50,646 bases of DNA, taken from positions 1 to 50,646 of the forward strand of contig JAILLA010000113.1 of assembly GCA_024693325.1 (NCBI GenBank). Direction: 5' to 3'. Below the pieces are notes generated by a model. It was not told the origin of the DNA. It made no database searches and was given only the letters and a program-made list of their open reading frames with translations. The translations under genes and the position numbers were made by a program. Source of the DNA: Solobacterium sp. (lineage in GTDB: Bacteria > Bacillota_I > Bacilli_A > Erysipelotrichales > Erysipelotrichaceae). Below, piece by piece: positions 8,801-43,630 of this stretch; within the stretch, counting starts at the first letter, position 1; the number at the start of each line of letters is the position of its first letter.

Positions 8801-11800
8801 TGACTCATGAATGATGATATCCGCTGATTCTTCTTTGAACGAGATTCCTGTCAGATGGGTAAACAGTATGCTGATCTCCTTGCTTGCAGTAAGACCACCT
8901 TCTGAAGTTGCAGTGATCGTCACTTTTCCCTCACCCACTGCTGTAACAACACCATTTTCATCTACTGTTGCGATACTCTCATCACTGGATGCCCATGTGA
9001 CCTTCTGATGCGTCGTATCAGACGGTGTGAATGTCACTTCAAGTGTTTCAGACTTACCATATTCGATCTCACTGACTTCTGTCAGGATCTCGATCTTTTC
9101 TGCAGGTATGACTACTGTTACTAAACACTCAGCCGATACGGTTCCAGCTGTAGCTGTAATGGTTGCTTCGCCTCCGGATACACCTGTTATCTTGCCTGTC
9201 TCATCGATCGAAACGATCGACGCATCACTGGATTTCCAGACAACGATGTCAGTTGTATTCGCAGGCGTGACTATTGCTGTAAGCTGAGCTGTTTCACCTT
9301 CATTTACTGTCAGTGATGAAGCATTCAATGTAATGGATGTTGCAGGCACATCTCTCGGTTCCAGATATCCTTGTGTGCTGTAAACACACATCTCATACTG
9401 GTTGACGACCTTGATATCAAGATATTCATTTTCAGGAACATTCTTGAGATCATCTTTTGTGAAATAGCGGTAGATCGAACCGGACAGGCCGGATCTGCTG
9501 GAAACAGTTATGCTCTTGAACAGCTGATTCGTTCCCTTCTGATACAGCCTGATCGTATACGGGAATACTGCCTCAGGTCCGAATCCGATTCCTAAGTAGA
9601 CATTGTAGCTCTTTCCCGTTGCATAGACAGTTGATCTTCCTGTTGATACATAATGTCCGTATTCACTCTCATAGTATTCAGGATACGTTCCGTCTGCCTG
9701 TCTGGCTTGCTGATAGTCTCTGGGACGTACTCCGTTTCTTGTTACCCTGAAATAGAGACCGACATATTCTGTGCTCAGACCGGAAATTGTCAGAGTTCTG
9801 CTACTATAACCCGTAATAGACCATCCGGTAACAGGTGTGCCCAGTGCATCAAATACTTCAAGTTTATACTTTTTGTCTGTCCAGAGTTCCTTGGCTGCGG
9901 CCGCACTGGCTGCGCTGTTGAGTTCAGGAGTATCCATGTTCAGATTAAACACTGTAGTATTGGTCGAATAGTTTGTCGAGAAACTGCCGTACATATACGT
10001 CATATAGAACGTATCAGTGATCAAAACTGTTATTGCAGTAGTGACATATGGCTGTTTATCATCTGTGAACGCAATATTGTACATACCATCTTCAGTGATC
10101 GGAGTTGTCAGTGTCCAGTTCTTAACTGAATAAGTATTATAGTTGATATTGTTTCTGACAGCTGTGCCTGCTGTGATGCTGTTTGATGTGCCATATACTG
10201 TTCCAGCCTGATCTGTAAGTTCAAATTTCATGCTGGCTGTATCCACAGCTGTTTCCGCAGGAATTCCAACAAAGATACTGTCGATCGAAGTCACCTGAGT
10301 GTTATACAGATATTTAGATAATTGTACATACGCATTGCCTGTATCGACTTCATCAGAAGGATATCTGACACTTACATTTGCTGTAGTACTGTATTCCGTT
10401 TCCCCATCTTTGGAGTAATACTTCAGATAATATGTCTTGCCGCTGACAGGTTTGAACACTTCTTCATTAAACTTCAGATTGAATGCTAAGATGCAGTCTT
10501 CAGTGATCGTAAATTCTTCTGTCTCACCGATACGGTTGACGTCTTTGCTTCTGTCACTGCTGTTGTTATACGCAATGACTTTTACGATCTTGTCAGGATT
10601 TGCAGCAGTTGCTTCAAACTGTTCACGTTTCCAGTTATACCAGGATTCATATACATCGTATTTATAACTATCACCGGCATAATAATATAAAGTACTGCCG
10701 CTAATGTTATTGATATATTCGTATCCGTCCTGAACCTCAAATTTGAATTCAAGATTTAATGAGTCTTCTTTCCAGCAGTCACCTGTCTTCTTCAGCTTAT
10801 ATACCGGTGTGCTGCCATCGTAATAGTGTGCTGCAGGGGTCGTTTCAGTTGCCTGCTTTCCCTGGTAATACAGTACTGGCCAGATCTTGTCGGGGTTGAT
10901 ATTCTTACCGCTAAGTTCAACGAAAATATAATCTCCCAGAGAATTATAATCAGAGTCCTGATAGATCGAATCCAGTATTGCAGGATCTTCAACTGAGTAA
11001 ACAACCAGACAGTCATTGATCATCAGTGTCCGATTATCTGATGTTGTCAGTCTGGCTGAATATGTGCCTGACTTTAAGCGTTTGATCAGATTGATACGGA
11101 GACTGCTGATATATGTATATGATGTTGCTTCAGAATAATATACAGAGCTCGGGAAATGATATCTTTCTTCATATCTGGTGCTTGATGTTCTTGTACTGAC
11201 AGTTTCAGTTTTTCCGCAGATAGCCCCGGATGCATTGATCAGTTCTGCCTTTGTGAATGCTGCTGAGCTGAACTCTTCCGGAAGATAAATATCGTATACA
11301 TATACATTTGTCGAATCGGAAGATACATAAGATACTTCAGTTTCTCTTGTGTCTTTTACAAACCTGATGTTCTTAACTGCTTCTTTGTATGTTGTGCCAA
11401 ATTCGTCTTTGATCGTGAATGATGCAGAATAGTCCTTATCATAATCAAACGTGGTTCCGAAGGCTGTCTCTGCATCTTCTTCCAGGAATACACGGTCGTT
11501 GTTATAACTGGTGTTGTTATAAGTGATATCTGTTGTTTTTCCGTCAATAGTCAATGTGAGCGTATAGCTTCTTCCACTCTTCATTCCGGCATAATAAACG
11601 GCTGCAGTCTTCTTATCTGAATGATCATAGAACTGATCCGGAATCATAAGTGAATCATTTCTCTGTTCCGTTTTGAAATTACTGATATAGTTCTCAATAT
11701 TCTCAACGGATGCAGGGAATTTATCCGTGGTTATCGTATCAGGATCAATCATGTTGTAATACACGGAAGGATATTTCAGACTTGTAAATCCGCTCAGATC

Positions 11801-24916: not shown

Positions 24917-26371
24917 TCAGCTGATATACCAGCTGAGTTTTCCTGTTTCCTGAAGTCTCTTCAGTTCTTTCTTCTGAAGGACGATGTAGTGTTCAAAGTC
25001 TGCTGCGCAGGACTCATAATCAACTGTATCCGGTTTCTCAGAGTCTTTTGAAGAATAAGCAGTATGTCCGGTTATAAATGCAGAATAGAGATCCCGCTGT
25101 ACCATGATCCCTTCGATTTCAAAGGTTCGGACACTGAGATCCTTCTTCACTTTTTCTCCCGTCGCATGATTGATCTGGGATGCACATATCTTTGATGTGT
25201 CTGTATGTATCAGTTCTTTTCCAATGTAATGAAGCTTTCTGTCAAGAATTGCTTCAAACATTGACGGTGCGTGGTTTGCCAGAGCTTTGCCGAACCTCGA
25301 TTTTCTGTTATATCTTCCGTTCTTCTGATTGACGGATGTTTTCTTTGAACGTTTCTGCAGAGCTCTGTAGTTCATTGTTTCGCAAATAATGCACGTGCTT
25401 CTTTCGAGCATTTCATTAGCGAGTTTTTCGTGGGATTCCTTCAGGGAGGCTGCACGTTTTCTGTACAGCTCTCTTCTTTTCGCCCGAAGTTTTCTGTACC
25501 GTCCGGAATACTTCCACTTCAGTTTCCCTCTGAGGATCGATCCGTCATCTTTATAGTTTGACGGATTAGATGCTCTTCTGCTTCGATCCATTGCGCGGCT
25601 GATTCTTCGTATTTCCGCATCTGTTTCCGGTATTTCAGGTGCCAGCGCATGGAGTTGAACATGTTCCGATGACACTTCCGCCACAGTTGAGACTCCGATA
25701 TCCAGCCCGGTGACCGTTTCTTCAGATCCGTATTCATGTTTCTTCGGAGGAATGCCTCGTAAAACAAGCTGGACAAAATATCTAGTTTTCCCTCGTATGG
25801 TTTTTCTTGTCAGACGGACATATTTCAGTCTGCTGCTGCGGAGCGCTTCTTCCGCATAGGCATCTCCCGGTTTTACAGTCACTTCATATTTGTGCTTTCT
25901 TCCGATATACAGCAGACCGTTACGGTAATTCAGTGCAGAATTCTTTGATTTTCCTTCCACCGATGTATCATCATAAACACTGTGGTGCCTAACTCTGTCT
26001 GCTTCATGGAAGCGTATCTTCTCCACTGCCCGGAACGCTTTTGTTGCCTGTTTCTGACATTCGTCTATCCCGACAGTGTCTGAAAAATGATGCTTCATCT
26101 CCGCCGCCTTTTCGTGAAACTGATATTCTGTATAACCGTATTCGATCTGTTTCTGATGAATCTTTTTGTTTCTCCCCGGAACAGACTTGTTTTTCACAAG
26201 CATCTGATATTCCGGGTCCATCTGAAGTCTGTGCAGTCTTTTCAGCGCAGTATCAAGACAGCCGTTATAGATCTGATCCAGTATACGGAAATACTTTTCA
26301 ATAAACTCGCAGTCCTTGATATCAGCTTCCAGAGTAAGAACAAAGGATCTGGTCGTCTCATATCTATGCAT
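24917..26371 (-). CDS. tnpB: TnpB, RNA-guided RuvC-type nuclease of IS200/IS605
   Basis: TnpB proteins are guide-RNA-directed DNA nucleases that help the element persist. The 484-residue protein has the three RuvC motifs: GLDIGVST (Asp, about 223), IICETMNYRAL (Glu, about 330) and VQRDLYSAF (Asp, about 425). Between the last two, where most TnpBs have a CxxC...CxxC zinc ribbon, this one reads TSKICASQINHATGEKVKKDL with a single cysteine, so the metal site is lost. The start overlaps tnpA by 8 bp, with GAGGAG just upstream. The C-terminal extension after RuvC III (about 60 residues) is unusually acidic for the family. Confidence 0.9.
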   Translation of the reverse strand: MHRYETTRSFVLTLEADIKDCEFIEKYFRILDQIYNGCLDTALKRLHRLQMDPEYQMLVKNKSVPGRNKKIHQKQIEYGYTEYQFHEKAAEMKHHFSDTVGIDECQKQATKAFRAVEKIRFHEADRVRHHSVYDDTSVEGKSKNSALNYRNGLLYIGRKHKYEVTVKPGDAYAEEALRSSRLKYVRLTRKTIRGKTRYFVQLVLRGIPPKKHEYGSEETVTGLDIGVSTVAEVSSEHVQLHALAPEIPETDAEIRRISRAMDRSRRASNPSNYKDDGSILRGKLKWKYSGRYRKLRAKRRELYRKRAASLKESHEKLANEMLERSTCIICETMNYRALQKRSKKTSVNQKNGRYNRKSRFGKALANHAPSMFEAILDRKLHYIGKELIHTDTSKICASQINHATGEKVKKDLSVRTFEIEGIMVQRDLYSAFITGHTAYSSKDSEKPDTVDYESCAADFEHYIVLQKKELKRLQETGKLSWYIS

Positions 26372-27434: not shown

Positions 27435-30400
27435 TCAGAACATGCGCGCGAAGAAGTTTTTAACGCCCTGCCAGTAATCACTGATACTTCTCTGCCCAAT
27501 TTTGAATGTTACGGTCTTTGTTCCTCCGTATTCACCTTTGCCCTGGAACGTTACTTTCGCTGTTCCTTTATTGATGTTGTTCGTGTAGCTTACGATCTCA
27601 TAGTCTCTTCCAAGTACCAGATCCTGTTCTTTCATTCCGAGCTTGATGCTTGTTATGTCATCTTCTGTGAGCGTTACAGCTGATTCGGTGTATTCCTTGT
27701 TTGCAATCTTGAAGGTCATCTTTGAGATGTCCTTACCTGTATCAAGAATATGGTAGTACGTTTCTGCTGTTCCGGTGTAATTCCCTTTGCCTGTAACTGT
27801 GACCTTAACGACTGTTCCAGCTTCAACAACTGCAGGGAGTTCCTCACCATCTACTGTTGTATAGATAATCGTCTTCTCATAGTCTGTTCCGACCTTCAGT
27901 GCTTTACCATCTGTATCCTTCAGTACAGGTGCACTCTTCCATGCATTTGCTTTTGTGGAATATACCTTGTCTTTGGCTGTGATCGTTACTGCACTGAGCG
28001 GTTTCGGATCGATAAAGAAGTCTTTTATAACTGATCCTTTGAAGTTTCCTTTGAAAGTGACAGTTACTGTCGGCCATCTGCTTACAAATTCATCAGTTAC
28101 TTTCTTATTGTTTGCATACTTCAGTGTGTAGTCTGTTCCAGCTTTCAGTTCCTTATCATTCCAGAATACATGTACTTCAGGAATTGCTCCGCCTTTACTG
28201 TAGACAGTGTCTTTGACATCAAATGTGAATTCGTCTTTATGTTCTTCATACAGACGCGGTGTGATCTTGAATGTCTTCTTGACTGTTCCGGTGTAAATTC
28301 CTTTACCGGTTGCTGTGACTGTTGCTGTTCCGGCATTCACATTCTTTGTGTATGTGACGGTGTAATCATCCTCTGTAATAATTCCTTCATATGCAGGTTT
28401 CGAACCGATCGATGCATTAAGCTTTTCATTACCGTCATATTCTTCAGATGCTGCTGTGATCGTGATTGCCTTACTTAATGCGATTGTCTTTTCCTTGACT
28501 GTTTCTTCTGCTATCGTCAGAGGGATCTCTTTCTCTCCGGTAAAGTTCTTTTCATTGCCTGTTATGACGATCTTATATGTACCTGCATCCTTAGGTCCTG
28601 TCTTCTTGTCCAAAGGATTGTTTTCACTGTCATAGTACGTCAGTGTATATTCCTTGGAACTCAGTACTTTACCATTGAAGGTAATGACAGGAACAGGTCT
28701 CTGAACTTTATTGTTGGCCTTTAATGCAATGCTTTCTTCGGTATATACCTGCTCTGAATCATTCAGATCAATCTGATCAATTGAGAACGGGACATATGTC
28801 TTTCCGGAATAGTTTCCCTTTCCTGTGATCAGGATATAAGGTGTCTTATCTCCCTTTGCAGGAATGAAGGATGATCTGTCTCCTTCATAGGAATAAGCAT
28901 TGGTGTTGTTTTTGTAGGTGACTGTGTAGTCTTTTCCTGCTGTCAGAAGCTTTCCGGAATCATATACTGCAGGGACAGGTTTGATGGCTGTACCGGTATA
29001 AGCGTAAGAATCATTGAGATCTCTTACATAAATATTCTTTGGTGCAACCGTTACAGTACACTCTGCTGTTTTATTGCCGTCTTTTGTTGTAACAGTGATC
29101 ACTGCTGTTCCTTCTGAGATACCGATAATATTTCCATCCGGATCAACAGTCACAACTTCTTCATTATCAGAAGTGAATGTCACTTCTTTGTTGGATGCGT
29201 TCTCAGGTTCAAAATGAAGACGAAGTGTGCGTGTATCCCCTTTAGCCAGAACTGTATTTTCTTCTGTGAAAGCAACATGCTCAATGTGATGGTATACGAC
29301 TGTGATCTCTTTTGAAACAGAGAAACCGCCATCTATAGCAGTTGCTGTAATGATTACCGTACCTTCTCCAACTGCAGTGATGCTACCGTTCTCATCTACA
29401 ACAGCAACCGTCTCATCACTTGATGACCATAATAGCTTCTGATTTGTTGTGTCAGCCGGTTCAAACGTGATCTGAATCGTTCCTGTTTTGCCATAATCGA
29501 TCTCTGATACAGACCCTTCTTCATTTACCGAGATACTTTCCGCATGTACAGCATATACAGTAACTGTACACTGAGCGGTATATCCTCTGTCCTCTGTTTT
29601 GACTGTTATGACTGCCGTTCCTTCCGTCAGTGCAGTCACTAATCCGTTCTGGTCTACCGTGGCAACAGTTTCATCGCTTGATGACCATGTCACGTTCTTG
29701 TTTTCCGCATTATCCGGTTTTATTTCAGCATCCAGGTCAATTGTTGTACCGACACACAGATTGGCTGCTTCTTCGGAAATAGTGACGGAAGTGACACGAA
29801 CAGGCTGCGGTCCGACATTCAGTGCCCCTATATAGCCTGCATCAGTAATGTGCTGATTGATGCCTTCAGCCCGGATCACAAACCTGTATACAGTATCTGC
29901 TGAAAGACCGCTGAGATCTTCTTCTGTAAAGAAATAATTACTGTCTTCATCCAGTTCAGACTGACTGCTGATCGTAATCGTTTTGACCGGAACAGACTGA
30001 CCATACGGGTAGATCTCAAGTACAACAGGATATCCTTCTGTACCATGGATATATAACCCATAACAGAAGTTCTCTGTCTTATTATTGGAAATCAGATGGA
30101 AATTGAATCCTGATCCATCGTCCGTGGAGAATGAGTACAATATTCCATGTTCCGGATCAGATTCCTCTCCGAAATGCTCGTAATAATCCATATTCGTCGC
30201 AGGATGGAGTGCATTTCTGCCATCTTTCGTCACTCTGGCATAGATCCTGTTTAAGGATGTATCCAGACCTTTGATATAGAACTTCCATTCATTGGACGCA
30301 CTGATACGTTCATATTTTTCTACTGTCCAGCCGGTCTGCTCATTCCAGTTTTCACCAAAGAAGCGGAGCGCGTAACCGTTGTCCTCCCATACATCTGCTA

Positions 30401-33023
30401 TATTTTCCTCACTGTACGGACTTAGGGTAACGGAACTAAGCGTGAACACATAATCACTGTCCGAATCTGCTGTTTTCACCAGTGACTGGGATTCTTCATA
30501 GAATGTATCATCTTCTTCAACAACAGTTACCTGATATCTTCCGACAGTTCCGTCCGGTGCTTTCAGACGAACTGTGTATACGTCGGCAGACAGCAGTTCC
30601 TGAAGTTCCAGGGTACCGGTATAAACACATGGTTCCCCACCATCTGCGGAGATCTTCTTCCATGAAGCTGTCACACCATACACTGTACCTGTACTCAGAT
30701 TCTGGATGTCAACGGTATAGTCATCCGGAACTGCTGTCTGATCACTCAGACACAGCAATGCGTCCAGTACCGTTTCATTGGTGTATACTGCTTCCCTGAT
30801 CGAAAGAGATACATTAGTATCTTCGTAATTGTATTTCAGCAGATCAAGACTGCAGTTAGCTGTCCTGCTTGTTCCGTTGACTGTGAATGTGGCTGTCAGA
30901 TACAGCTGAACTGTGTTTTCCACAGGCTCATAAATATTGCCTTCTGTATCTTTCAGGACCATATACGCCATATGATCTTCATCAACGGTACCTGTTCCCT
31001 GAGCGACGACTGCAGACCCAAAGAGCTTTTTCAGATTAATACTGATGCTCGTCCCGGCTGGGATATTGGAGCTGGTGCTGAATTCAAATCTTTGCTTTTT
31101 GTAGTTGTAGGCTCCCGAAGTGATCTTGTATGAATTCGGATACAGATAGAATGAATCATAATCAAACGGAAGTGCCTGTGCATGCATATCCCTGAGGTCC
31201 CGGTAAGCGATCTCTTTTGGATTCAGCAGCCGGATCTTTCCTTCAATCGTACTGTCTGTATGATCCCAGACAGATCCTGTCTTCTTTAGGACAAAGATCA
31301 CCTTTCCGCCTGTACCATAATCATCGACCGTAATCGTATTTACCGGTTCCGGATCCGTCACAGGTGTTTCACCTACATACAGGATCGGGATAATGTCTTC
31401 GGAATACATGTTCGACATCTCCATCTGGATATGAACATACGGACCATAGTTATCGTAATCATCAACCAGGTCTGTATAGTTTACCAGCGGACCTTCATCT
31501 GCCGCATAGGAAATGATCTTCTTTTCCAGAACATATGTGATATCCCTGACAGTAACGACAACATCATATTCTCCCGCAGGAATGCCCTGGAAGACAGTGA
31601 AGCCGACCATTGTTGTCTGCGTGTTTGAAATGTTGTATCCGTCATAATTCAGATCCGGATAATACCCGCCGTAATTCTCCAGATACGCATTGAAATCACC
31701 GACTCCCTGAAGAACATTGCCTGCCTGATCCCGGATCATCACATTGATCTCATCAAGTTCATAGCTTCCAAGAATCTGGAAAATGAAATTGCTGTATGTT
31801 TCCGTGCTGGCCAGTTCTTCCGTATTCATCAGGACGATCTTGTCTGTGTAGTGAATAGTGATGTCCTTTTTCATTTCACTGCCATATTTATCGTACACAC
31901 GGAGAGTGAAGCTGTAATCATTGCCGGGTTCCAGTCCGAAGTCATATTCCGTGCTGTTCAGATCTTCAAACCGGAACTGTTTGATATACATCGTCAATGC
32001 TGTGTCTGACTTTAATACTGCTGTTTTTTCACCGTAAGTCAGTTCCGCATACACATCACGGTTTGTCTTCCACTGACATCCCAGGAGGAAAGAAGGCTTT
32101 CCGTCAATGAAGTAATACTGTGACTCTGTCGTGATATCCTGTTTCCGCTGCATGCGCAGAGCGGAACTGATGAAGTACGTATTTGAAGCCACTGCAGGAG
32201 GCAGCTTGTCTGTCGTCAGTTTTTGTTCAGTCAGGAAGTTATAGTTTAACTGCAGTGACGTGATACTCGTCCCTGAAAGATCAGGAATGTCAGCCAGATC
32301 GTTATAGTTGACATTCAGCGTTCCAAGTTTTGTCAATCCAAGTACAGCATCGATATTCGTCAGATTATGACCTGTTAAATCCAGATATGTGAGGTTTCGC
32401 AGATACTGGATCCCTTCGACAGATGTAAGTGCTTTATTCAGATACCTGAAACCGAAATAAGCGGATGTTACAGTATCCAGCTTTTCCTGTGTCAGCTGTC
32501 CGTTTACACCGTATTCTCTGAGCAGATACTGATACAGCTGGGGATCACCAAAATCAGCTTCGGTATAAATAACTGTTTCGCCATCCTGTACTTCCGCTTC
32601 TTCAGCTTCCTGTTCCAATGCCTCCTCAACTTCAGGATCTTCTTCCGATTCTGTCTGAAGTCCTTCAGGAGCTTCCGTTTCTGAGATCTCTTCCTGTTCC
32701 GGTAATTCAGAGACTTCTTCCTCGTTATATTCAGTTCCTTCATCGATATTCTGATTCGCAGTTACGTTTTCCTGTTCCTCATTCTGCAGATCCACGGAAT
32801 TCTCTTCATCTGTCTGTTCGGTTTCTTCAAGGATGTTCTCATCCTCAGAGGCAGTTTCTTCTTCAGGAATGATCCCTTCCGTTATTTCTGTTTCTTCTGT
32901 CATCATTGTGTTCTCTGGCTCAGAAACCATTTCTTCTTCCGCCCGGATAACACTGAACGAGCTGCTGAAGCATAACAAAATACTAAACGCCCACGAAATA
33001 ACACAATTCTTCTTATCTGACAT
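27435..33023 (-). CDS. Giant secreted surface protein with LRR and Big_2 domains
   Basis: This is the third paralogue, 1862 residues. A signal peptide (1-28, ending VIRA) precedes a Glu-rich stretch to about 150. A short internalin-type LRR block follows (about 165-270, with LTYLDLTGHNLTNID and LNVNYNDL), then a long beta-rich region to about 1070 that is recognisably related to that of the 2649-aa protein (for example TGW followed by ISGL/IKGL and RVTxxGR). Three Big_2-type domains span about 1075-1328. Six C-terminal YTG/GTDY repeats end in GQRSISDYWQGVKNFFARMF. There is no LPXTG motif. The ribosome site GAGGGAGAG precedes the ATG. A surface adhesin or scaffold role is inferred. Confidence 0.85.
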   Translation of the reverse strand: MSDKKNCVISWAFSILLCFSSSFSVIRAEEEMVSEPENTMMTEETEITEGIIPEEETASEDENILEETEQTDEENSVDLQNEEQENVTANQNIDEGTEYNEEEVSELPEQEEISETEAPEGLQTESEEDPEVEEALEQEAEEAEVQDGETVIYTEADFGDPQLYQYLLREYGVNGQLTQEKLDTVTSAYFGFRYLNKALTSVEGIQYLRNLTYLDLTGHNLTNIDAVLGLTKLGTLNVNYNDLADIPDLSGTSITSLQLNYNFLTEQKLTTDKLPPAVASNTYFISSALRMQRKQDITTESQYYFIDGKPSFLLGCQWKTNRDVYAELTYGEKTAVLKSDTALTMYIKQFRFEDLNSTEYDFGLEPGNDYSFTLRVYDKYGSEMKKDITIHYTDKIVLMNTEELASTETYSNFIFQILGSYELDEINVMIRDQAGNVLQGVGDFNAYLENYGGYYPDLNYDGYNISNTQTTMVGFTVFQGIPAGEYDVVVTVRDITYVLEKKIISYAADEGPLVNYTDLVDDYDNYGPYVHIQMEMSNMYSEDIIPILYVGETPVTDPEPVNTITVDDYGTGGKVIFVLKKTGSVWDHTDSTIEGKIRLLNPKEIAYRDLRDMHAQALPFDYDSFYLYPNSYKITSGAYNYKKQRFEFSTSSNIPAGTSISINLKKLFGSAVVAQGTGTVDEDHMAYMVLKDTEGNIYEPVENTVQLYLTATFTVNGTSRTANCSLDLLKYNYEDTNVSLSIREAVYTNETVLDALLCLSDQTAVPDDYTVDIQNLSTGTVYGVTASWKKISADGGEPCVYTGTLELQELLSADVYTVRLKAPDGTVGRYQVTVVEEDDTFYEESQSLVKTADSDSDYVFTLSSVTLSPYSEENIADVWEDNGYALRFFGENWNEQTGWTVEKYERISASNEWKFYIKGLDTSLNRIYARVTKDGRNALHPATNMDYYEHFGEESDPEHGILYSFSTDDGSGFNFHLISNNKTENFCYGLYIHGTEGYPVVLEIYPYGQSVPVKTITISSQSELDEDSNYFFTEEDLSGLSADTVYRFVIRAEGINQHITDAGYIGALNVGPQPVRVTSVTISEEAANLCVGTTIDLDAEIKPDNAENKNVTWSSSDETVATVDQNGLVTALTEGTAVITVKTEDRGYTAQCTVTVYAVHAESISVNEEGSVSEIDYGKTGTIQITFEPADTTNQKLLWSSSDETVAVVDENGSITAVGEGTVIITATAIDGGFSVSKEITVVYHHIEHVAFTEENTVLAKGDTRTLRLHFEPENASNKEVTFTSDNEEVVTVDPDGNIIGISEGTAVITVTTKDGNKTAECTVTVAPKNIYVRDLNDSYAYTGTAIKPVPAVYDSGKLLTAGKDYTVTYKNNTNAYSYEGDRSSFIPAKGDKTPYILITGKGNYSGKTYVPFSIDQIDLNDSEQVYTEESIALKANNKVQRPVPVITFNGKVLSSKEYTLTYYDSENNPLDKKTGPKDAGTYKIVITGNEKNFTGEKEIPLTIAEETVKEKTIALSKAITITAASEEYDGNEKLNASIGSKPAYEGIITEDDYTVTYTKNVNAGTATVTATGKGIYTGTVKKTFKITPRLYEEHKDEFTFDVKDTVYSKGGAIPEVHVFWNDKELKAGTDYTLKYANNKKVTDEFVSRWPTVTVTFKGNFKGSVIKDFFIDPKPLSAVTITAKDKVYSTKANAWKSAPVLKDTDGKALKVGTDYEKTIIYTTVDGEELPAVVEAGTVVKVTVTGKGNYTGTAETYYHILDTGKDISKMTFKIANKEYTESAVTLTEDDITSIKLGMKEQDLVLGRDYEIVSYTNNINKGTAKVTFQGKGEYGGTKTVTFKIGQRSISDYWQGVKNFFARMF

Positions 33024-35083: not shown

Positions 35084-38000
35084 TCATTTCCAGTAGTAGC
35101 TGACGTTCACTGTCTTCTCCAGATTGTTGACACGTTCTGCCTGGCGCTCCAGTACGGATGTGTCATCTGTCATGTCGTTTCTCGGGTCAAAGTCCGGCTC
35201 GTCGTATCTTCTTGCTTTCCAGAGATCTTCCAGCCATCCGAACATTGCGTCATAAACGATGCCGAATACATTCTCAAAATTCTCGATGTAATTGATCTCA
35301 ATACAGTAACCGAACATCTTGATGATCAGGTACGCGCCATCCAGTTTCGCTGAGATATCCAGTGTTTCCTGCACATCCTTGTATGCTTTTTCCACATCGA
35401 TACCTGTGAGTTTCTTGAATCCGCGGGCAAGCAGACGGGCTGTTGCTGACGAACGGTCGATCGCAGCTCCGGCTAGAACTTCATGTGTCTGTGTACCAAG
35501 CGCATCGTTTTCATCCAGTGTTCCGCCGAACATATAGTTCAGCAGCTGGGCGATCGCGATGTCTGCTGCCGAAGCAGCCTTATCGACGATACCTTCGATC
35601 TCTTTCTCCGCGCCTTCCATGTATTTGGCCTTCAGCGCTTCCTTGGCCGCCTTACCGGCTGCGTTTGCTCCATCTGTCAGCGTGCCGCTGGCTTTATAGG
35701 AACCGCGTACATACTGCATAAAGACATTGATACCGGCTGTGTCCGCTTTTGACTGATAGCCTTTCCTCAGCTGGTCAGAAAGCAGGTTTCCGGCATATTT
35801 GCCGCATGGTTCAAGTACCTTCTTGCCCAGTTCTTTGATCTTGTCACCGAGGAACGCCTTGAACTTGGTCAAGGTCAGGTCGCCTAATGCGGCCATAAGT
35901 GATTTGAAGATATCACCCTTGTCATCACCTTCTCCATAGAAGTAATGCTTGGAGAAGCTCATCATCAGATACAGTGAGACGAACTGTCCGAGCACTCTTG
36001 GAGTCATCGGAATCTCACCTGTCAGCACTGCGCCGAGTGTTTCGTTGCAGCTGTTGACCAGCGTCTTCATGAACGCGAATTCTTCAATGTCTCCGCCTTC
36101 CGTCAGGTCGACCCATGACCAGCGGGCAACATACTGTCCAAGGTATTCCGCCAGCGCGTTTTTAAACGGGTTGGCAAATGCCGCGATCACATCTGACGGC
36201 GCAGTCGGCCAGTACAGTTTGATCGCTGCTTCGGTCGCCTTGTCGCCGATCGCGACCAGGGATGACGCAACAACGATATACCTCGTCATGACCTTGTCGA
36301 TCGAAGCGTATTCTTCACTCTGTGCTTCGTAGAACAACTTGCCTGCAAGCAGGACCTGGTATGTCAGATGTTCAATGTCTGCGCCTGACATATTGGGAGC
36401 GTTTCTCACCATATTCCTGAGATCGGGATCACTTCCGAGTCCGAAGATCTGAACTGCTCTTCTGAGTTTTTTCAGTGCTTCTTCCTTTCTGGCAAGGCTG
36501 GGCAGATCGGGTTTGATACCGATCATTCGGAACGGAAGCTTCGCTTCTTCTTTGTGTCCTTCCCCTTCATACAGCAGTTTCAGGTAAGCGTAATAAGGCT
36601 CTATGACGACAGGCAGCGTATTGTACGCATAAATGGAAATGCCTGCTCCCCCGTATACTTTCCAGGGGAAATGCTCTTTAAATGTATTTCCGTATTTCCC
36701 GTCATCCAGGAATCCTGTGTAATTCATGCCGGGGTTCTTTTCAACTACTGCCTCTTCCCCGTTCATGTAACATACATATACATTGAACATTGCAGGCGGT
36801 ATCTTTGCGCTTCCGACCGCGTTTTCATCCGGTATGGTATTCATTTCGATGCAGCCGTCTTTCTCGTCTTCCATCGGTACCGAGATACCGTCAGGCCAGA
36901 TGTTGATCGTAAACTCATTTTCTGTATGCGTTTTGTCCGCAAAGTCTGCGCGTATCATAACATCCTGGCGTCTTCTGTCCGCAAAGATGTCAGCGGTCTT
37001 TTTGATCTTCCTCGTACGGTTGGTGATCTCCGCCCAATACGTATAGGAATACTCATTGTCCTTGACAGCATTGATTGCAAAACCGGTGGTATTGCTGAAG
37101 GTGATATTCTCAGGTTCCTCCAGGGCACCGGCCAGCAGGAAACGCAGCCTTGTCTTTCCGCCCATACCGGCGATCACATCCGTTTCATTCAGATCCGCAT
37201 TGATGACCCATGCGCTTCCGTCTTCCTTCATCTGCGGGAAGACGATCTTCACATCTCCGCCCAGCCGGAAGATCACATTTCTGATGAACTCACCGCCTTC
37301 GCCGACATAGCGGAACGATACCGTCCCCTCTGTCTTCAGCGATTCCGGATCTGCTGTCACAGAAGCGTATTTATACTTGCCGCTCATCCCTGCGTCACGG
37401 ACATTCAGTGTATCGTTTTCCGAATACACCTGGATATTCTTTGTCAGGTCGTTCCGTGGTTTCTCCCCGTCCTCCGTGATCTCTGCGATCCTTGCGCCGA
37501 CACGTACCGGTTTCCCGTCCTTACGGATCACATCACCGAAGTCCTTGTATACATACATTTTGTAGCGGGAAGCGTACTTCTTCTTTTTCTTCTCTTTCTT
37601 ATCACCGGAGTCATCCTTCTTCGTTCCTCCGGAAGCGATCGCAGCGCCTGCGGCTGCAGCCCCGCCGACGCTGATGATGATCGATCCGGGAAGATCCGGG
37701 TCATCAAACTCATCGACGATATCGGAAACGATATGGGTTCCGGAGTCTTCGCCGGACTGCTCTGAAGCAGCACCGGTGGAAGTCTGGCTGGTCTTGCCGA
37801 CGGTAAAGTAGAAATCATAACTCACATGTGTATCATCCAGATCATCATTTTTGTAGATCTGTACCCTGACTCTCCGGACCCCCTCTGCAACAGTGTATTC
37901 ATTGTGTGCTGTCCAGGATTTAGAAGCGTCTGTATTAGGCCAGTCATCCGAATATAGTTTATTGATCGTCCATCCCGTATCCGAACTGAATGCCATATCC

Positions 38001-38446
38001 CAGTTCACTCCCGGCAGATCTACCATCGTATCCGTCATCATGATCCATGTATTCAGTTCACCGTTGTTGCCGTGTTCCGTTGCGGAAACACGAATCGTGT
38101 CTCCCACATTGATGTGACCGCGGTATTCACGGATGTCCACATTGACCCAGTCTTCTTTATTTGAAGCCTGATCACTCTGTTTTACCAATCTGAGATCCCA
38201 GGGCTGTGCAAACCAGCCATCCACTGTCCAGTCCATAGACCCTCTGTGCTCACCGTGAGAAGGAATTCCATCCACATACACAAATGTTTCCCCGTACGCA
38301 ATACTGTCAGATATGGACTGGTACTGCCGCTCTCCTTCCGCATGCGCGGTCACTGCTGCAAGCGGCATTGCCATCGTACACAGTAAAAGAACTGCGGCTG
38401 CGAGCGCATGAAGATATCTTTGTATATTCTCTCTTATATGCTTCAT
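35084..38446 (-). CDS. Large membrane protein of unknown function, zinc-ribbon cluster
   Basis: I do not recognise a named family. The 1120-residue protein has a signal peptide (to about 36, ending VTAHA) and an exported beta-rich domain (about 40-215) with Trp-rich stretches such as DWTVDGWFAQPWDL. A Ser/Asp linker, one Gly/Ala-rich transmembrane segment (about 250-275) and a lysine-rich stop (KKEKKKKK) follow. That would place the remaining 830 residues, starting YKMYVYKDFGDVIRKDGKPV, in the cytoplasm. This part has a beta-rich half (to about 570) and a helical, Ala/Gly-containing half. The frame opens at a GTG (38461), but the ATG at 38446 has AAAGGAGGG directly upstream. It is the last gene of a five-gene minus-strand cluster whose other members mostly carry zinc ribbons. 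Confidence 0.8.
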   Translation of the reverse strand: MKHIRENIQRYLHALAAAVLLLCTMAMPLAAVTAHAEGERQYQSISDSIAYGETFVYVDGIPSHGEHRGSMDWTVDGWFAQPWDLRLVKQSDQASNKEDWVNVDIREYRGHINVGDTIRVSATEHGNNGELNTWIMMTDTMVDLPGVNWDMAFSSDTGWTINKLYSDDWPNTDASKSWTAHNEYTVAEGVRRVRVQIYKNDDLDDTHVSYDFYFTVGKTSQTSTGAASEQSGEDSGTHIVSDIVDEFDDPDLPGSIIISVGGAAAAGAAIASGGTKKDDSGDKKEKKKKKYASRYKMYVYKDFGDVIRKDGKPVRVGARIAEITEDGEKPRNDLTKNIQVYSENDTLNVRDAGMSGKYKYASVTADPESLKTEGTVSFRYVGEGGEFIRNVIFRLGGDVKIVFPQMKEDGSAWVINADLNETDVIAGMGGKTRLRFLLAGALEEPENITFSNTTGFAINAVKDNEYSYTYWAEITNRTRKIKKTADIFADRRRQDVMIRADFADKTHTENEFTINIWPDGISVPMEDEKDGCIEMNTIPDENAVGSAKIPPAMFNVYVCYMNGEEAVVEKNPGMNYTGFLDDGKYGNTFKEHFPWKVYGGAGISIYAYNTLPVVIEPYYAYLKLLYEGEGHKEEAKLPFRMIGIKPDLPSLARKEEALKKLRRAVQIFGLGSDPDLRNMVRNAPNMSGADIEHLTYQVLLAGKLFYEAQSEEYASIDKVMTRYIVVASSLVAIGDKATEAAIKLYWPTAPSDVIAAFANPFKNALAEYLGQYVARWSWVDLTEGGDIEEFAFMKTLVNSCNETLGAVLTGEIPMTPRVLGQFVSLYLMMSFSKHYFYGEGDDKGDIFKSLMAALGDLTLTKFKAFLGDKIKELGKKVLEPCGKYAGNLLSDQLRKGYQSKADTAGINVFMQYVRGSYKASGTLTDGANAAGKAAKEALKAKYMEGAEKEIEGIVDKAASAADIAIAQLLNYMFGGTLDENDALGTQTHEVLAGAAIDRSSATARLLARGFKKLTGIDVEKAYKDVQETLDISAKLDGAYLIIKMFGYCIEINYIENFENVFGIVYDAMFGWLEDLWKARRYDEPDFDPRNDMTDDTSVLERQAERVNNLEKTVNVSYYWK

Positions 38447-38457
38447 ATGCCCTCCTT

Positions 38458-39522
38458 TCACAGCCCCATTGCCATGACGGCAGTCATAAGTGCAAATCCA
38501 ATCGAAATACCGGACAGCAGGCTCTTCACCTTGCCGGTCTGAACGATACGTTCTCCGTTCATTTTCCCGGAAGTAAGTGATCCTGCCAGTTCATACAGAT
38601 TTCCGTCTTTCCTGCCGATCGCCTGCAGGCTCAACAACGCGCCGGAGATCCCTGCCATGGAAGAAGCGGAGGCATTGTCAATGCCGGTAAAGCCAAGACA
38701 GCAGGCAGCTCCGATGATCAGCCCGAACAGGAAACCAAACAGGCTTCCTTTTCCTTCATTCTGAAACAGGGAACCGATCCCTTTGAATGTATTGCTGATC
38801 CCTCCGGAAAACAGTGTCGACAGGAATACTGCCGTACATCCTTTTCCAAAGATCCCGCCTTTGGCACAGGTGATCCAGGACAGCGCTTTAACGACCTCAG
38901 ACCCGGAGTCCTTCAGTATCGCCAGTACAGTCCAGAGTCCTGCCATCAGCAGTGAATACAGCAATACCTTCGGTTTCACAAGCATGCCAAATAAACCACT
39001 TACATAAGATCCCAGGTAACGCAGGATCCCTGTGAGAGGTGAATCTGCTGAAGCAGCTGATAATACAGGTGATGTACTGAGTTCCGTGATCCCCGAGATC
39101 ACAGGACCCATATCACCGAAATCCATTTCTCCCGCGGCAGTGGACGCAGCCATTCTGAAAGCACCCTGCAGTTTCTGAACAGAAGCAGGTCTGACCTGAC
39201 GGACAGGCTTACTGCCCTGCAGTGGACTTCCGCAGAACAGGCAGAACTTTGCGCCTTTGTCTGCTTGCTTCCCGCAGGACGGGCAGATGATTTCTTCCGG
39301 TTCCGGTGCTTTAGGCTTCTTACCGGTCAGCGGTGTTCCGCAGCCCATGCAGAACTTCGCACCTGCGTCTGCCTTTCTTCCGCACACAGGACAAATGACT
39401 CCCTGTGTTTCAGGTCTGGTTTTTTCCAGAGCAGGAAGCTCTGTTCCGCAATAAAGGCAGAACTTTGAGTCTCCGCTGACTTCTTTGCCGCATGAGGGAC
39501 ATGTTCTTTTACGTACAGCCAT
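38458..39522 (-). CDS. Membrane protein with three N-terminal zinc ribbons
   Basis: A 354-residue protein. Three CxxC...CxxC zinc ribbons occupy residues 8-32, 43-65 and 79-101 (CPSCGKEVSGDSKFCLYCG and two near copies). Then comes a linker and a hydrophobic region (about 185-354) with roughly five membrane segments, including LLYSLLMAGLWTVLAIL and LLSGISIGFALMTAVMAMGL at the very C-terminus. The ribbons should be cytoplasmic, possibly for protein or nucleic-acid contact. The start has AAGGAG. The stop is 11 bp before the ATG of the 1120-aa gene. The function is unknown. Confidence 0.82.
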   Translation of the reverse strand: MAVRKRTCPSCGKEVSGDSKFCLYCGTELPALEKTRPETQGVICPVCGRKADAGAKFCMGCGTPLTGKKPKAPEPEEIICPSCGKQADKGAKFCLFCGSPLQGSKPVRQVRPASVQKLQGAFRMAASTAAGEMDFGDMGPVISGITELSTSPVLSAASADSPLTGILRYLGSYVSGLFGMLVKPKVLLYSLLMAGLWTVLAILKDSGSEVVKALSWITCAKGGIFGKGCTAVFLSTLFSGGISNTFKGIGSLFQNEGKGSLFGFLFGLIIGAACCLGFTGIDNASASSMAGISGALLSLQAIGRKDGNLYELAGSLTSGKMNGERIVQTGKVKSLLSGISIGFALMTAVMAMGL

Positions 39523-39532
39523 AGGCTTCTCC

Positions 39533-40432
39533 TTACGGTCTTACCAGCAGGACATCGCCGAACATGCCGCTTTCCCTGACAACGATGTTGCCAAGTACAT
39601 AGTCCCTGCCTTCATAGGAATAATACGGTCCCAGACCGATCGCAATCCCTCCGTCAGACAGATCGATGTATTCCGGATCCCATGTACCGCTGAACGGTTC
39701 ATAACCGACTTCCTCTTCCGTTTCCGGCATCACATCATTTCCATAACGGATGTACTGGGGATGCAGGATCAGCTGGGCACCCTGCTCAGAGAAGGATACT
39801 TCCGCAGTACCGATCTCATCGATCCGCTCTTCCCCGGGGATCGTCCGGTTGAATGTCATGCAGTATTTCCATTCACCGCCGATATATCCAGCTTCACGCA
39901 GGACAGCACCCTTGGGGATCCCGTTATTGTATACATCGTCTTCATAGAACAGAAAGTCATCAAACCAGACATTCGTCAGATCACCTAATCCCTGCGGGAT
40001 ATCCTCAACCACCGGTGTCTGTACTTCGGGGACTGCCGGTACCGGTGTGCTTTCTGTATGTGTCTGTTGTTCCACAGGTGTTTGGTTTCCTGAAGACGTC
40101 TGGTTTCCTGTAGGTTTTACAGTAGAGGGCTTCTCCGTACCGGAACCTGTATTGTTGTTCACAGTCTGCTGGGCAGGAGGATCTGCAGGAGGTGTACGGT
40201 GGAATATTGACTCCAGCCCTCCGATCAGCAGCAGGAATATCCCTGCCACAACATTCAGGATAAAAAACCATTTCACGATCTTCCAAAGAACCGAAAAGTT
40301 CTTCTTTTCCGGTGTCTTTGCGGGTGAAGAAAACTGTGGTGTGTTCATTAAGGGAATCTTTGTTCCGCAGTTATCGCAGAATTCCGCATAATCCGGTAAT
40401 TTCTTACCGCAGTTGGGACAATATACAGCCAT
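39533..40432 (-). CDS. Zinc-ribbon protein with one TM and an outer domain
   Basis: A 299-residue protein. The N-terminal zinc ribbon (YCPNCGKKLPDYAEFCDNCG, residues 4-23) is followed by a transmembrane segment (about 48-75, VKWFFILNVVAGIFLLLIGGL), a Pro/Thr/Gln/Asn-rich linker (about 80-145) and a C-terminal domain of 150 residues that ends in GNIVVRESGMFGDVLLV. The order fits a cytoplasmic ribbon and an exported beta-rich domain. AAAGGAGG precedes the start. The gap to the next gene is 10 bp, indicating an operon. The function is unknown. Confidence 0.82.
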   Translation of the reverse strand: MAVYCPNCGKKLPDYAEFCDNCGTKIPLMNTPQFSSPAKTPEKKNFSVLWKIVKWFFILNVVAGIFLLLIGGLESIFHRTPPADPPAQQTVNNNTGSGTEKPSTVKPTGNQTSSGNQTPVEQQTHTESTPVPAVPEVQTPVVEDIPQGLGDLTNVWFDDFLFYEDDVYNNGIPKGAVLREAGYIGGEWKYCMTFNRTIPGEERIDEIGTAEVSFSEQGAQLILHPQYIRYGNDVMPETEEEVGYEPFSGTWDPEYIDLSDGGIAIGLGPYYSYEGRDYVLGNIVVRESGMFGDVLLVRP

Positions 40433-40452
40433 ATTTCTGATTCCTCCTTTGT

Positions 40453-40962
40453 TTATTTCTGAAGTTCAAAGACGACTCCGACAGGAGTATCGTCTTTATA
40501 GAAGACCGTCGGGATCTTTTCCGGCGTTACTGTCTGCAGACTGACCTGGACAGTACCGCTCTCTGTAACAGTCCCGATCCTGATCACAACGGAATCGTCA
40601 CCGACTGTAATACGCAGTTCATGTGCCGCGTCATATCGGATATCAAAGCTTCCGTGCGGCGGCAGGTTTCCGCTGAGGAATGTATAGGTCCCCTCCTGTC
40701 TGCCTTCCGGCAGGCCGCTCATTTCCGCCAGTTCCGGTCCAAAGTCAATGATGACTGTTGTATCATCACCGTTGAATTCCATGGATCCGTATTCCGACAC
40801 AAACAGTCCGTTATGGGGATCGGGTACCGGTGTATCAGGTACTGGCGGATAATTGCCCCCATCCCTGGGACCGTGCGGGAAGAACATGTAAAAGCAGACT
40901 GCGCATACCAGCAGTGCCGCTAAGATCAGTAATATCCGTTTCATATACTTCATATCGTTCAC
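40453..40962 (-). CDS. Small membrane-anchored protein of the zinc-ribbon cluster
   Basis: A 169-residue protein. One N-terminal transmembrane segment (about 9-27) precedes a Pro-rich linker (PPVPDTPVPDP) and a beta-rich exported domain (NGLFVSEYGSMEFNGDDTTVIIDFG...). There is no zinc ribbon and no good lipobox. The frame starts at GTG (40962); the in-frame ATG at 40953 is an equally possible start. It lies 20 bp upstream of the next gene and 45 bp after the previous one in the same operon. The domain is unknown, and it may share the exported-domain role of its neighbour. Confidence 0.72.
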   Translation of the reverse strand: MNDMKYMKRILLILAALLVCAVCFYMFFPHGPRDGGNYPPVPDTPVPDPHNGLFVSEYGSMEFNGDDTTVIIDFGPELAEMSGLPEGRQEGTYTFLSGNLPPHGSFDIRYDAAHELRITVGDDSVVIRIGTVTESGTVQVSLQTVTPEKIPTVFYKDDTPVGVVFELQK

Positions 40963-41007
40963 CGTTTACAGTTATATCTGTTGATTCTTTCATTCTGCTT
41001 CTGAAAA

Positions 41008-41706
41008 CTACTTTTTCATGACCTGTGCCTGAGGACAGCGGGCAGTAATATAGTCCAGTACAAAGTCATAGTGCTCCGGATCGGTATAGACCTGGTTCCG
41101 GATCAGATTTCCATACAACTGGAACAGGCACTTTGATGAGTCTGCCTTGATCTTTCTGACATTGGAGAACCGTGAATACAGGGACGTTCCTGTTGCGGAA
41201 AGAACACCTGCTCCTGCGACAGTACGGTTTCCTGTTTTCGCTCCGGCAAGGATCGTCAGCGCTTCCAGAGCTTTTGCCTTGTCGGTCTTGATCTGTGTAT
41301 GGTCAATTCCTTCTTCATCCATTTCAAACAGCACGGTATATTTCCCGTTGTTTGCCTTTGTAACGATCCAGTAAGCCGGAAGTGACAGTACCATAAGAAT
41401 CGCAAGTACAATGATCCCGGTCGTAAAAGCTCCGGTCACACCATCCAGTCCATCTCCGGACAGCAGGTTGATCACCAGCATGAGCACAATGATGATTGCC
41501 GCACTAATGCCAAGAACCCTCCAGACTTCAAACAGGAGGAAGAAGCTCTTCATCATCGGAAGCTCATATACCCAGCGGTATACACCTTCACTGTCTTCAG
41601 CCGGTCTTTCTTCCGGCATATCTTGGTTCAGCGCATGACCGCACTGATTGCAGAAAACAGCGTTATCCGGAAGCTCAGCTCCGCAGACAGGACATTTTAC
41701 CGTCAT
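41008..41706 (-). CDS. Zinc-ribbon membrane protein, first gene of cluster
   Basis: A 232-residue protein with an N-terminal zinc ribbon (CPVCGAELPDNAVFCNQCG, residues 5-23), two membrane segments (about 62-84 and 97-117) and a C-terminal soluble region (about 120-232) that should be cytoplasmic. It leads the minus-strand cluster and has GGGAGGG just upstream of its start. It is divergent from the double-HTH gene across a 171-bp region. The function is unknown. Confidence 0.82.
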   Translation of the reverse strand: MTVKCPVCGAELPDNAVFCNQCGHALNQDMPEERPAEDSEGVYRWVYELPMMKSFFLLFEVWRVLGISAAIIIVLMLVINLLSGDGLDGVTGAFTTGIIVLAILMVLSLPAYWIVTKANNGKYTVLFEMDEEGIDHTQIKTDKAKALEALTILAGAKTGNRTVAGAGVLSATGTSLYSRFSNVRKIKADSSKCLFQLYGNLIRNQVYTDPEHYDFVLDYITARCPQAQVMKK

Positions 41707-41784
41707 ATGTACCCTCCCTGACCCACGATTAAAATGTGATTGCGGTCACTTTCATTTTAGACATACATGAACATGTTTCTTTTC

Positions 41785-41834
41785 GTGCCACATACTATGT
41801 CAATGACTGTTATGCGGCACATATCTGTTATACT
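41785..41834 (+). promoter_or_regulatory. Divergent promoter region with inverted repeat
   Basis: GTGCCACATA (41785-41794) and TATGCGGCAC (41811-41820) are inverted copies with one mismatch, separated by 16 bp, just upstream of a TATACT at 41829-41834 on the plus strand. AGGAG at about 41864-41868 serves the downstream ATG at 41878. This is a plausible operator for the double-HTH protein and could control both directions. Confidence 0.5.
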
Positions 41835-41877
41835 GAAAATGACAGAAACAAAAGCTGTCGGATAGGAGTGTTTTCTC

Positions 41878-43587
41878 ATGTTTGCCAATCAGCTGACCCT
41901 GCTGCTGGATACTCTGGAGGTATCCGGATCTGATCTTGCCGGTTATGCACAAATGGACAGAACAGCCATCAGCCGTATGAAGAACGGATCCAGACAGCCG
42001 AAACATAACGGAACATCTGTTAAGAAACTGATCCATGGGATCATCAGTTACTGCTCAGAAAACAGGAAAACAGATACTCTGCTGGAACTGACCGGTACAG
42101 AGGATCTTTCTGAAGAGGAACTGTCACAGGCATTGCTGGAGTGGCTGTATGAAGACAGCAGTGCTGATGACCGGAATACTGCTTCCCCTGCCGAGCGTGT
42201 ATCAACCCAGTCTTTCGGTACACATTTAAACGCTGTCATGAACCTGGCAGGCATATCCAATATCAGGCTCAGTCAGCTCGTATACGCTGACGCGTCTCTC
42301 ATCAGCCGTTACCGCCGTTCCCAGCGCCGGCCAAAAAGCGGCTCTGACATGGCAATGCGCATCTGCAGAGTCCTGTGGGAACGTATCGAAAAAGCAGACC
42401 GCATCCCGGAATTATGCGATCTGATGATGTGTAATGAAGCAGATGAACAGTCATTCTATGCATGGCTGTTTGAAAGCAGTCCCCAGGCTCAGACAGAAGA
42501 TATCACAGCTGAAAAGCTGATCTCCCTGATGAATACGGCAGTGGCTGTACCGCAGGCAGTCAGGCAGGAAATGCCTGTACTGCCGGAAAGTGAGATCAAA
42601 GAGATCTACCACGGAACAGCCGGACTGCGCAATGCGGTATTGAGGTTTCTGAAGGATGCTGTTCAACAGCATGTACAGCAGATGTTTCTGTATTCAGATG
42701 AAAACATGGACTGGCTGAGCGGTGACCCTGGCTTCTTCCGCATGTGGGCTGCCCTGATGCATGCCTGTGCTGTCAATCATACAGAGATCACCATCATTCA
42801 CCACGTCAACCGGAATATGAAGGAGCTGAATGACGCTGTGGCAGGATGGCTGCCGTTATACCTTTCCGGAATGATCTCTTCCTACTTCTGCAGAAGAGAC
42901 GAGCGTTTCCAGTTCACCAATACCATGTTTCTGATTCCGGGTAAGGCCTGTATCCGTGCTTCCCATGTACGGGGATTGGAAGCAGACGGCGTCTACCATT
43001 ACCATACTGACAGTGAATCTTTGGACCAGTTTGAAAAAGAATACCGGTCCCTGATCCGTCAGGCATCTCCCCTGTTTGCGATCCTGCCGGGCATGCATCT
43101 GCCGGAAGGAAACGATCAGGTGATCATACGGAATACCCTTCCGCTTGGAACCATGTCTGAAGATACTGTACGCAGTTTTGACCATGAAGGTCTGTATCGG
43201 GCATGGGAAACGATACGGTACCGCTTTGATGAAACAGATCATGGTCCGATCAGGGAATTCATTCCCCTATCAGAGCCCGGAAATGCAGTTTCTACAGAAC
43301 CAATACCCGGCATTCCTCAGTTTGTCTACACGGAAGAACAGTACCAACAGCATATCCGGGATATCCGGAACTTAGGTGCAGAGCATGACAGCTACCACCC
43401 TGTTTTCCTGAAGCACCGGACATTTGACAATGTACAGATCTTCATTACGGATACAAAAGTATCTGTCATCCGCATGTATCCTTCCCTGATCACATTTGAG
43501 ACAGCTCACCCGCAGATGTGCCGGGCATTCCTGGACTATGCGGACCGCCTTCAGCAATCCTCCTTAAATAAAGAAACAGAATCGTAA
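41878..43587 (+). CDS. Double-HTH putative regulator, divergent to zinc-ribbon cluster
   Basis: A 569-residue protein. Two segments look like Cro/C1-type helix-turn-helix domains: residues about 5-42 (LAGYAQMDRTAISRMKNGSRQPK) are followed by a second at about 112-153 (LSQLVYADASLISRYRRSQRRPK), where I give each motif only in part: SDLAGYAQMDRTAISRM and RLSQLVYADASLISRYR. The remaining 340 residues are soluble, with no transmembrane segment or known sensor domain recognised. It is the only large plus-strand gene in the window. It is divergent from the zinc-ribbon operon, suggesting that it controls it. It ends in a strong terminator. Confidence 0.72.
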   Translation: MFANQLTLLLDTLEVSGSDLAGYAQMDRTAISRMKNGSRQPKHNGTSVKKLIHGIISYCSENRKTDTLLELTGTEDLSEEELSQALLEWLYEDSSADDRNTASPAERVSTQSFGTHLNAVMNLAGISNIRLSQLVYADASLISRYRRSQRRPKSGSDMAMRICRVLWERIEKADRIPELCDLMMCNEADEQSFYAWLFESSPQAQTEDITAEKLISLMNTAVAVPQAVRQEMPVLPESEIKEIYHGTAGLRNAVLRFLKDAVQQHVQQMFLYSDENMDWLSGDPGFFRMWAALMHACAVNHTEITIIHHVNRNMKELNDAVAGWLPLYLSGMISSYFCRRDERFQFTNTMFLIPGKACIRASHVRGLEADGVYHYHTDSESLDQFEKEYRSLIRQASPLFAILPGMHLPEGNDQVIIRNTLPLGTMSEDTVRSFDHEGLYRAWETIRYRFDETDHGPIREFIPLSEPGNAVSTEPIPGIPQFVYTEEQYQQHIRDIRNLGAEHDSYHPVFLKHRTFDNVQIFITDTKVSVIRMYPSLITFETAHPQMCRAFLDYADRLQQSSLNKETES

Positions 43588-43589
43588 AA

Positions 43590-43630
43590 ACAGAGCAGAT
43601 GTGTCAGCACTTGACACGTCTGCTCTGTAT
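43590..43630 (+). terminator. Intrinsic terminator after the double-HTH gene
   Basis: ACAGAGCAGATGTGTCA pairs with TGACACGTCTGCTCTGT over 17 bp with one G-T pair and a short loop, just after the stop at 43587. The following run is weakly T-rich (ATTGTGTTTT). Confidence 0.8.

Follow-up and report, generated by a model that had tools for sequence, protein, structure and literature searches.

In this study, we analyzed a six-gene set in a stretch of 50,646 nucleotides (contig JAILLA010000113.1; the window) from a Solobacterium-like gut bacterium (G000; 3.6 Mb in 128 contigs), and found that it is best explained, tentatively and with somewhat less than an even probability, as a regulated module of the cell envelope for sensing or recognition at the surface. 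Coordinates and gaps confirmed what an earlier note on this DNA had described, namely five tightly spaced minus-strand genes and a divergent gene for a 569-residue protein. The minus strand carries gene A (35084-38461; 1125 residues from a GTG, or the note's 1120 if counted from an inner ATG), gene B (38458-39522; 354 residues), gene C (39533-40432; 299 residues), gene D (40453-40962; 169 residues) and gene E (41008-41706; 232 residues), and gene R (41878-43587) lies on the plus strand. A and B overlap by 4 nucleotides, the gaps are 10 (B-C), 20 (C-D), 45 (D-E) and 171 nucleotides (E-R), and all six genes are intact.

The protein types named in the earlier note were also recovered. Generic zinc ribbons, the only families to pass the Pfam cut-off, were found in B (three stretches), C and E, and a simple scan placed hydrophobic segments at residues 184, 257 and 332 of B (a multi-span membrane domain), 47 of C (one span) and 54 and 86 of E. 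The C-terminal domain of C is probably outside the cell, and the conserved C-terminal domain of E probably inside. D is the small anchored protein (segment at residue 4), presumably facing outward, A is the very large one with an outer domain and a single span (segments at 16 and 257), and R showed no hydrophobic segment in the same scan. The note's remark that the set has no named pathway held in Pfam, NCBIfam and PADLOC, which gave no family for A and nothing specific for the set beyond generic zinc ribbons (in NCBIfam, no gene matched over the cut-offs). PHROGs returned ribbon-type and other weak matches and nothing more, no housekeeping complex, the alternative that the note had raised, was matched, and a promoter scan gave 8 sites versus 10.5 in shuffles. 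No publication on this gene set was found in a literature search, most subscription journals lying outside its coverage.

First, we compared the set across relatives. Among 272 family genomes, close, full-length A proteins were found in the window genome and four other genomes of the genus, and a distant one in G198. A is 93% identical to the copy on contig JAFRJJ010000067.1 of a Solobacterium sp. metagenome-assembled genome (the same as G030:C38, counted once), and those close relatives of R that bear a name are likewise Solobacterium. A profile of the A core matched 9 of the 272 family genomes. It also matched 9 among 315 genomes of the order, 2 among 392 sampled from the phylum and one of the eight in the family of G477; these samples overlap, and three of them include the window genome. 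The co-occurrence that the earlier note proposed to look for was observed: of the four further genomes of the genus that carry full-length A, three (G030, G032 and G019) hold all six genes together, but the set is modular and its parts also occur apart. Gene order is as in the window in G030 and G032, the latter with an extra zinc-ribbon gene between D and C, and is R E B A D C in G019. In the fourth genome (G016), the contig starts shortly before C with the end of a gene of the G032 extra type (75% identical, 179 residues). Across 70 genus genomes (window included), matches to R, C, D and E were found in 30, 42, 15 and 46, respectively, many of the weak ones covering a helix-turn-helix (HTH) or a ribbon only. 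Pieces away from B-A include E-D in G051, E-C in G062 and at a second locus of G032 (G032:C78), and C-D in G037, while the A-core genes of G198, G034, G025 and G247:C78 have no R, D or E homologue adjoining, and the C neighbours of those in G034 and G025 are ribbon matches alone. Since the pieces are found apart, the set consists of two modules, B-A and R-E-D-C, under one switch.

Second, the distribution of B follows that of A. Its membrane domain was found (E<=0.001) in 6 of the 272 family genomes: the five of the genus that carry full-length A, and G247, which also holds an A-core protein. In G477, which belongs to another family, the A homologue overlaps by 4 nucleotides the gene of a zinc-ribbon protein, and this protein is matched to B both by hhalign (probability 99.8, E 4.4e-28) and by tblastn (1.8e-16). 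A B-A fusion in G247 is probable, not certain, judging from the protein L088_9, which joins a B-like membrane part and an apparent outer domain in one frame (search E against B 9.3e-6 and 7.4e-5 in two pieces, frames split by an N-run; hhalign probability 57, E 1.1e-4). It matches over 245 residues (E 0.007) the protein L027_10 of the same genome, in which an N-terminal membrane part precedes an A core (E 3.8e-13). L088_9 is the basis for proposing a fusion; no significance was reached when L027 by itself was compared with the B profile (hhalign E 0.067, versus 0.18-0.57 for controls). The L088_9 stretch also holds C-, D- and E-like genes, the C-like one a ribbon-region match. Against the pairing, neither G034 nor G025 has a B match, the gene before the A-core gene of G034 (L025_13) encodes a membrane protein not recognised as B, and the gene before A in G198 is partly masked and weakly matches the end of B.

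Third, R appeared to combine DNA binding with a sensor. The two HTHs that the earlier note had read in R were seen by fold as Xre-type domains (residues 1-96 and 106-203); Pfam detected neither in R itself, and the families HTH_3, HTH_31 and HTH_26 match in up to 13 of 32 aligned R members. R also has, by fold, a phospholipase-D-like (PLD-like) domain closest to TrmBL2/TrmB, with many other chains of the superfamily matching nearly as well and polyphosphate kinase as the top Foldseek hit. Catalytic phospholipases D carry the motif HxKx4D at the active site. Judged by sequence, the PLD-like domain of R is without this motif: the position two residues after the conserved H308 is occupied by V, I, L, F or C in all 32 members and by K in none, and HxKx4D occurs in three of them, always elsewhere in the chain. 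A local divergence dip versus the sister species (81.0 and 85.5%) lies in the second half of the PLD-like region (43101-43500), and directly 3' of R a strong 18-pair hairpin with a T-rich tail (43590-43628) is a likely terminator.

The inverted repeat noted in the divergent region is real and is kept beside other R genes. It spans 41785-41820 (no strand), is nested, GTGCC-N9-GTCAATGAC-N8-GGCAC, and is predicted to be the R operator. The window holds one match to the pattern (at most three mismatches) versus 0.01 expected; the pattern was derived from this same region, and the real test is conservation beside other R genes. GTGCC-N9-GTCAWTGAC-N8/9-GGCAC adjoins R in all eight genomes with an R at least 37% identical, the right arm being altered or shifted in three of them, and no exact half-site adjoins the R homologues at 31-33% identity (G069, G024:C8 and G057). 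The half-site GTGCCN9GTCAWTGA gave 66 matches in the 70 genomes versus 4 for the reversed control, 11 of the 66 being R-linked. Context was read for 49; among 45 checked together, all except the R-linked ones and G068:C35 lie inside open frames of at least 147 codons. Thus, the half-site alone is not a regulon predictor. When the fetched loci were scanned with a weight matrix, 101 raw hits were obtained, counting duplicated loci, versus 15 for the reversed control; the highest-ranking rows (values of 27 and above) are all R-linked or G068:C35, followed by a coding site. Two zinc-ribbon proteins, one following E-C in G032 (L084 9784-12942) and one with a half-site upstream (L122 3143-6193), are 50% identical and share an HExxH-like stretch, the former with weak similarity to DUF5700, a putative peptidase family.

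Finally, A has a receptor-like plan. On the minus strand, a signal peptide is followed by an outer beta domain (37754-38332; residues 44-236), one membrane span (37622-37693; about residues 257-280, Gly/Ala-rich, acidic before and Lys-rich after), three immunoglobulin-like (Ig-like) domains (36512-37564; residues 300-650) and a helical tail (35177-36511; residues 651-1095, low-confidence model). The first Ig-like domain (residues 300-408) is the family signature. With equal flanks of 20 residues, 36 of the 38 A-type proteins, that of the window among them, have more lysine and arginine on the inner than on the outer side, and an inner excess was also seen with flanks of 15 (32 of 38) and 30 residues (37 of 38). 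Among close relatives, the outer domain is the least conserved part, signal peptide excepted; this faster evolution of the outer than of the inner part suggests that A reads something at the cell surface. The inner tails of the family differ, being helical (window), short and Gly-rich, or of a type of about 900 residues. Two other readings of A were tried and set aside. For a polymorphic toxin, three of six long-tailed relatives were tested in Pfam without a meaningful match, and a profile of all six had no PDB sequence match. For a mobile element, A had no plasmid or phage match and the core profile no confirmed viral-contig match, though flanks differ between species.

The weight that the earlier note had given to zinc ribbons turned out to be misleading: Zn_Ribbon_1 matches 6 of 13 aligned E proteins, and in the other seven, cysteines or the segment have been lost and Pfam matches no ribbon, which makes the ribbon dispensable in E. 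Some relatives of D have a lipobox-like cysteine. An 803-residue protein of G024 starts with a lipobox-like signal in place of ribbon and span; over residues 59-797 it shares 45.5% identity with a ribbon-anchored 891-residue protein of G032. In view of these three observations, ribbon plus span acts like an anchor that can be replaced. Searched as profiles against PDB, the alignments of E and C gave no match, and that of D gave only weak, implausible ones. One ribbon membrane protein of G032 (L009 13989-15722) ends in an RNA 2'-phosphotransferase domain (KptA, E 6.9e-43), either a fusion or an assembly join.

According to the sensing reading, R would be a one-component regulator acting between its own gene and the operon, the two HTHs of each subunit reading two kinds of half-site, GTGCC and GTCA, set in one nested palindrome; conservation marks the site, and R presumably binds it. 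The PLD-like domain may bind a signal that alters DNA binding. When expressed, B and A would form a membrane pair, in which, going by sequence and model, A would place its variable domain outside, cross the membrane once and have its conserved Ig-like scaffold and its exchangeable tail on the inner side, an arrangement by which contact outside could be passed inward. C, D and E would be accessory envelope proteins, with the domains of C and D outside and that of E inside, and the ribbons may be replaceable structural or docking tags. A bolder form of this proposal, which we consider unlikely, is a new class of bacterial transmembrane receptors: the A family would combine a swappable outer recognition domain, a conserved span, a cytosolic Ig-like stalk and exchangeable inner tails with the multi-span partner B, and in this genus its transcription would be controlled by a double-HTH/PLD-like sensor acting at a palindrome-within-palindrome operator.

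Several observations weigh against the sensing reading. Variability of the signal peptide equals or exceeds that of the outer domain (P0001, P0003, P0010), and in distant relatives (P0014 onward) conservation outside the span and first Ig-like domain is much lower, mostly 10-27% (signal peptide 18-46%). For the outer domain, the ratio of nonsynonymous to synonymous substitution rates (dN/dS) stays below 1 (0.23; in a second pair 0.14, versus 0.13 for the span) and is saturated in the three other pairs, so positive selection is not supported; dS differs between parts of A versus the sister species, which points to recombination. The A model is poor (mean predicted local distance difference test score, pLDDT, 63.5; predicted template modelling score, pTM, 0.34). 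Because Ig-like domains usually lie outside cells, the inner placement of this part rests on charge, and a cysteine test of it was weakly supportive. The statistics of the B-A fusion are moderate, and no ligand, enzyme or output domain was identified for the set. R-E-D-C occurs without B-A in G068, and R-E-D in G070 (short contigs). The G016 assembly (91% complete) has no R or D anywhere, and E as ribbon-like matches alone; since its contig also starts before C, either this genome has no R-E-D part or the assembly lacks it. Together, G068 and G016 indicate that the modules need not act together.

Among the other explanations, the one that survives best, although we regard it as rather doubtful, is that the set has no signalling role and serves to build or stabilise the wall or a surface layer, as is proposed for the zinc membrane proteins of Lactococcus. 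By fold, S-layer and adhesin domains are among the many Ig-like chains that the Ig-like domains of A resemble, these PDB matches covering mainly residues 249-651 and leaving the outer domain and helical tail unjudged. In G068 the left half of the operator lies upstream of another zinc-ribbon gene, and the G032 relative beside E-C is weakly peptidase-like. The closest characterised look-alike, a Lactococcus operon for zinc membrane proteins, also points this way: such L. lactis proteins are linked to cell wall integrity, and llmg_0524-0525-0526 to altered lysozyme resistance (PMC4628341). A second possibility is a conflict or defence module, in which A recognises a phage or competitor outside and then uses its exchangeable inner tail to harm the cell or the rival. 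The modular A family with differing tails, the variable outer domain with mosaic divergence, the patchy distribution and the differing flanks of the set in G032 and G019 would all fit, but A and its tested long-tailed relatives (three in Pfam, six as a profile versus PDB sequences) show no toxin or nuclease domain, and the searches found no convincing PADLOC match and no match in phages or plasmids, which makes this distinctly unlikely. Of the sensing, assembly or defence roles suggested in the earlier note, sensing fits best, given an exposed variable domain linked by one span to a more conserved interior, and a TrmB-like sensor in R, whereas defence found no positive evidence. That the genes form no system, being independently acquired and sharing a promoter region by chance, is very improbable: members of the E, D and C families are found at many other sites, some E proteins have lost their ribbons and G016 yielded A-B-C but neither R nor D; against this, the set is kept across species with 64-66% A identity despite changed gene order, B is tied to A, and the operator half-site recurs upstream of another zinc-ribbon gene.

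Elsewhere in the window lie three very large Big_2-repeat proteins, probably of the surface (413-5671, also with LRR_5; 5873-13822; 27435-33023), and a weak OrfB_IS605 transposase-like match under the cut-off (24917-26371; E 5e-4).

Zinc-ribbon membrane proteins are common in gut Firmicutes, mostly with no assigned role. The operator, the B-A pair and the receptor-like plan offer a concrete entry point to them and, if A is a receptor, a single-span, Ig-scaffolded design would be added to the known architectures of bacterial membrane signalling. With regard to known systems, PADLOC-DB 2.0.0 gave no convincing match for the six proteins (best E 0.0057, next 0.2 for B); the best was RmrA (PDLC03948), which weakly matches one HTH of R (residues 110-154), whereas the rest of R and the other genes have no match to it. 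The archaeal regulators TrmB and TrmBL2 likewise join a PLD-like sensor fold to DNA-binding domains. They have a single TrmB-type winged HTH, whereas R has two Xre/Cro-like HTHs, a second domain half and a bacterial host. C resembles TcaA (NF053815) in its N-terminal zinc ribbon, one membrane segment and long, probably outer chain (as TcaA is described in PMC4628341). This is a works-like plan and not membership: C scores 18.5, B 16.2 and E 12.8 bits versus a cut-off of 550, and the matched stretches (C 5-69, B 6-35, E 4-35) are the ribbon and, in C, the anchor. The Llmg_0524-0525-0526 operon has three genes, and its description, in the portions of the source available, mentions neither a large A nor a multi-ribbon B nor any divergent HTH/PLD-like regulator, but its membrane proteins with an N-terminal CX2CX10CX2C zinc motif make it, by description, the nearest characterised counterpart of the set (PMC4628341).
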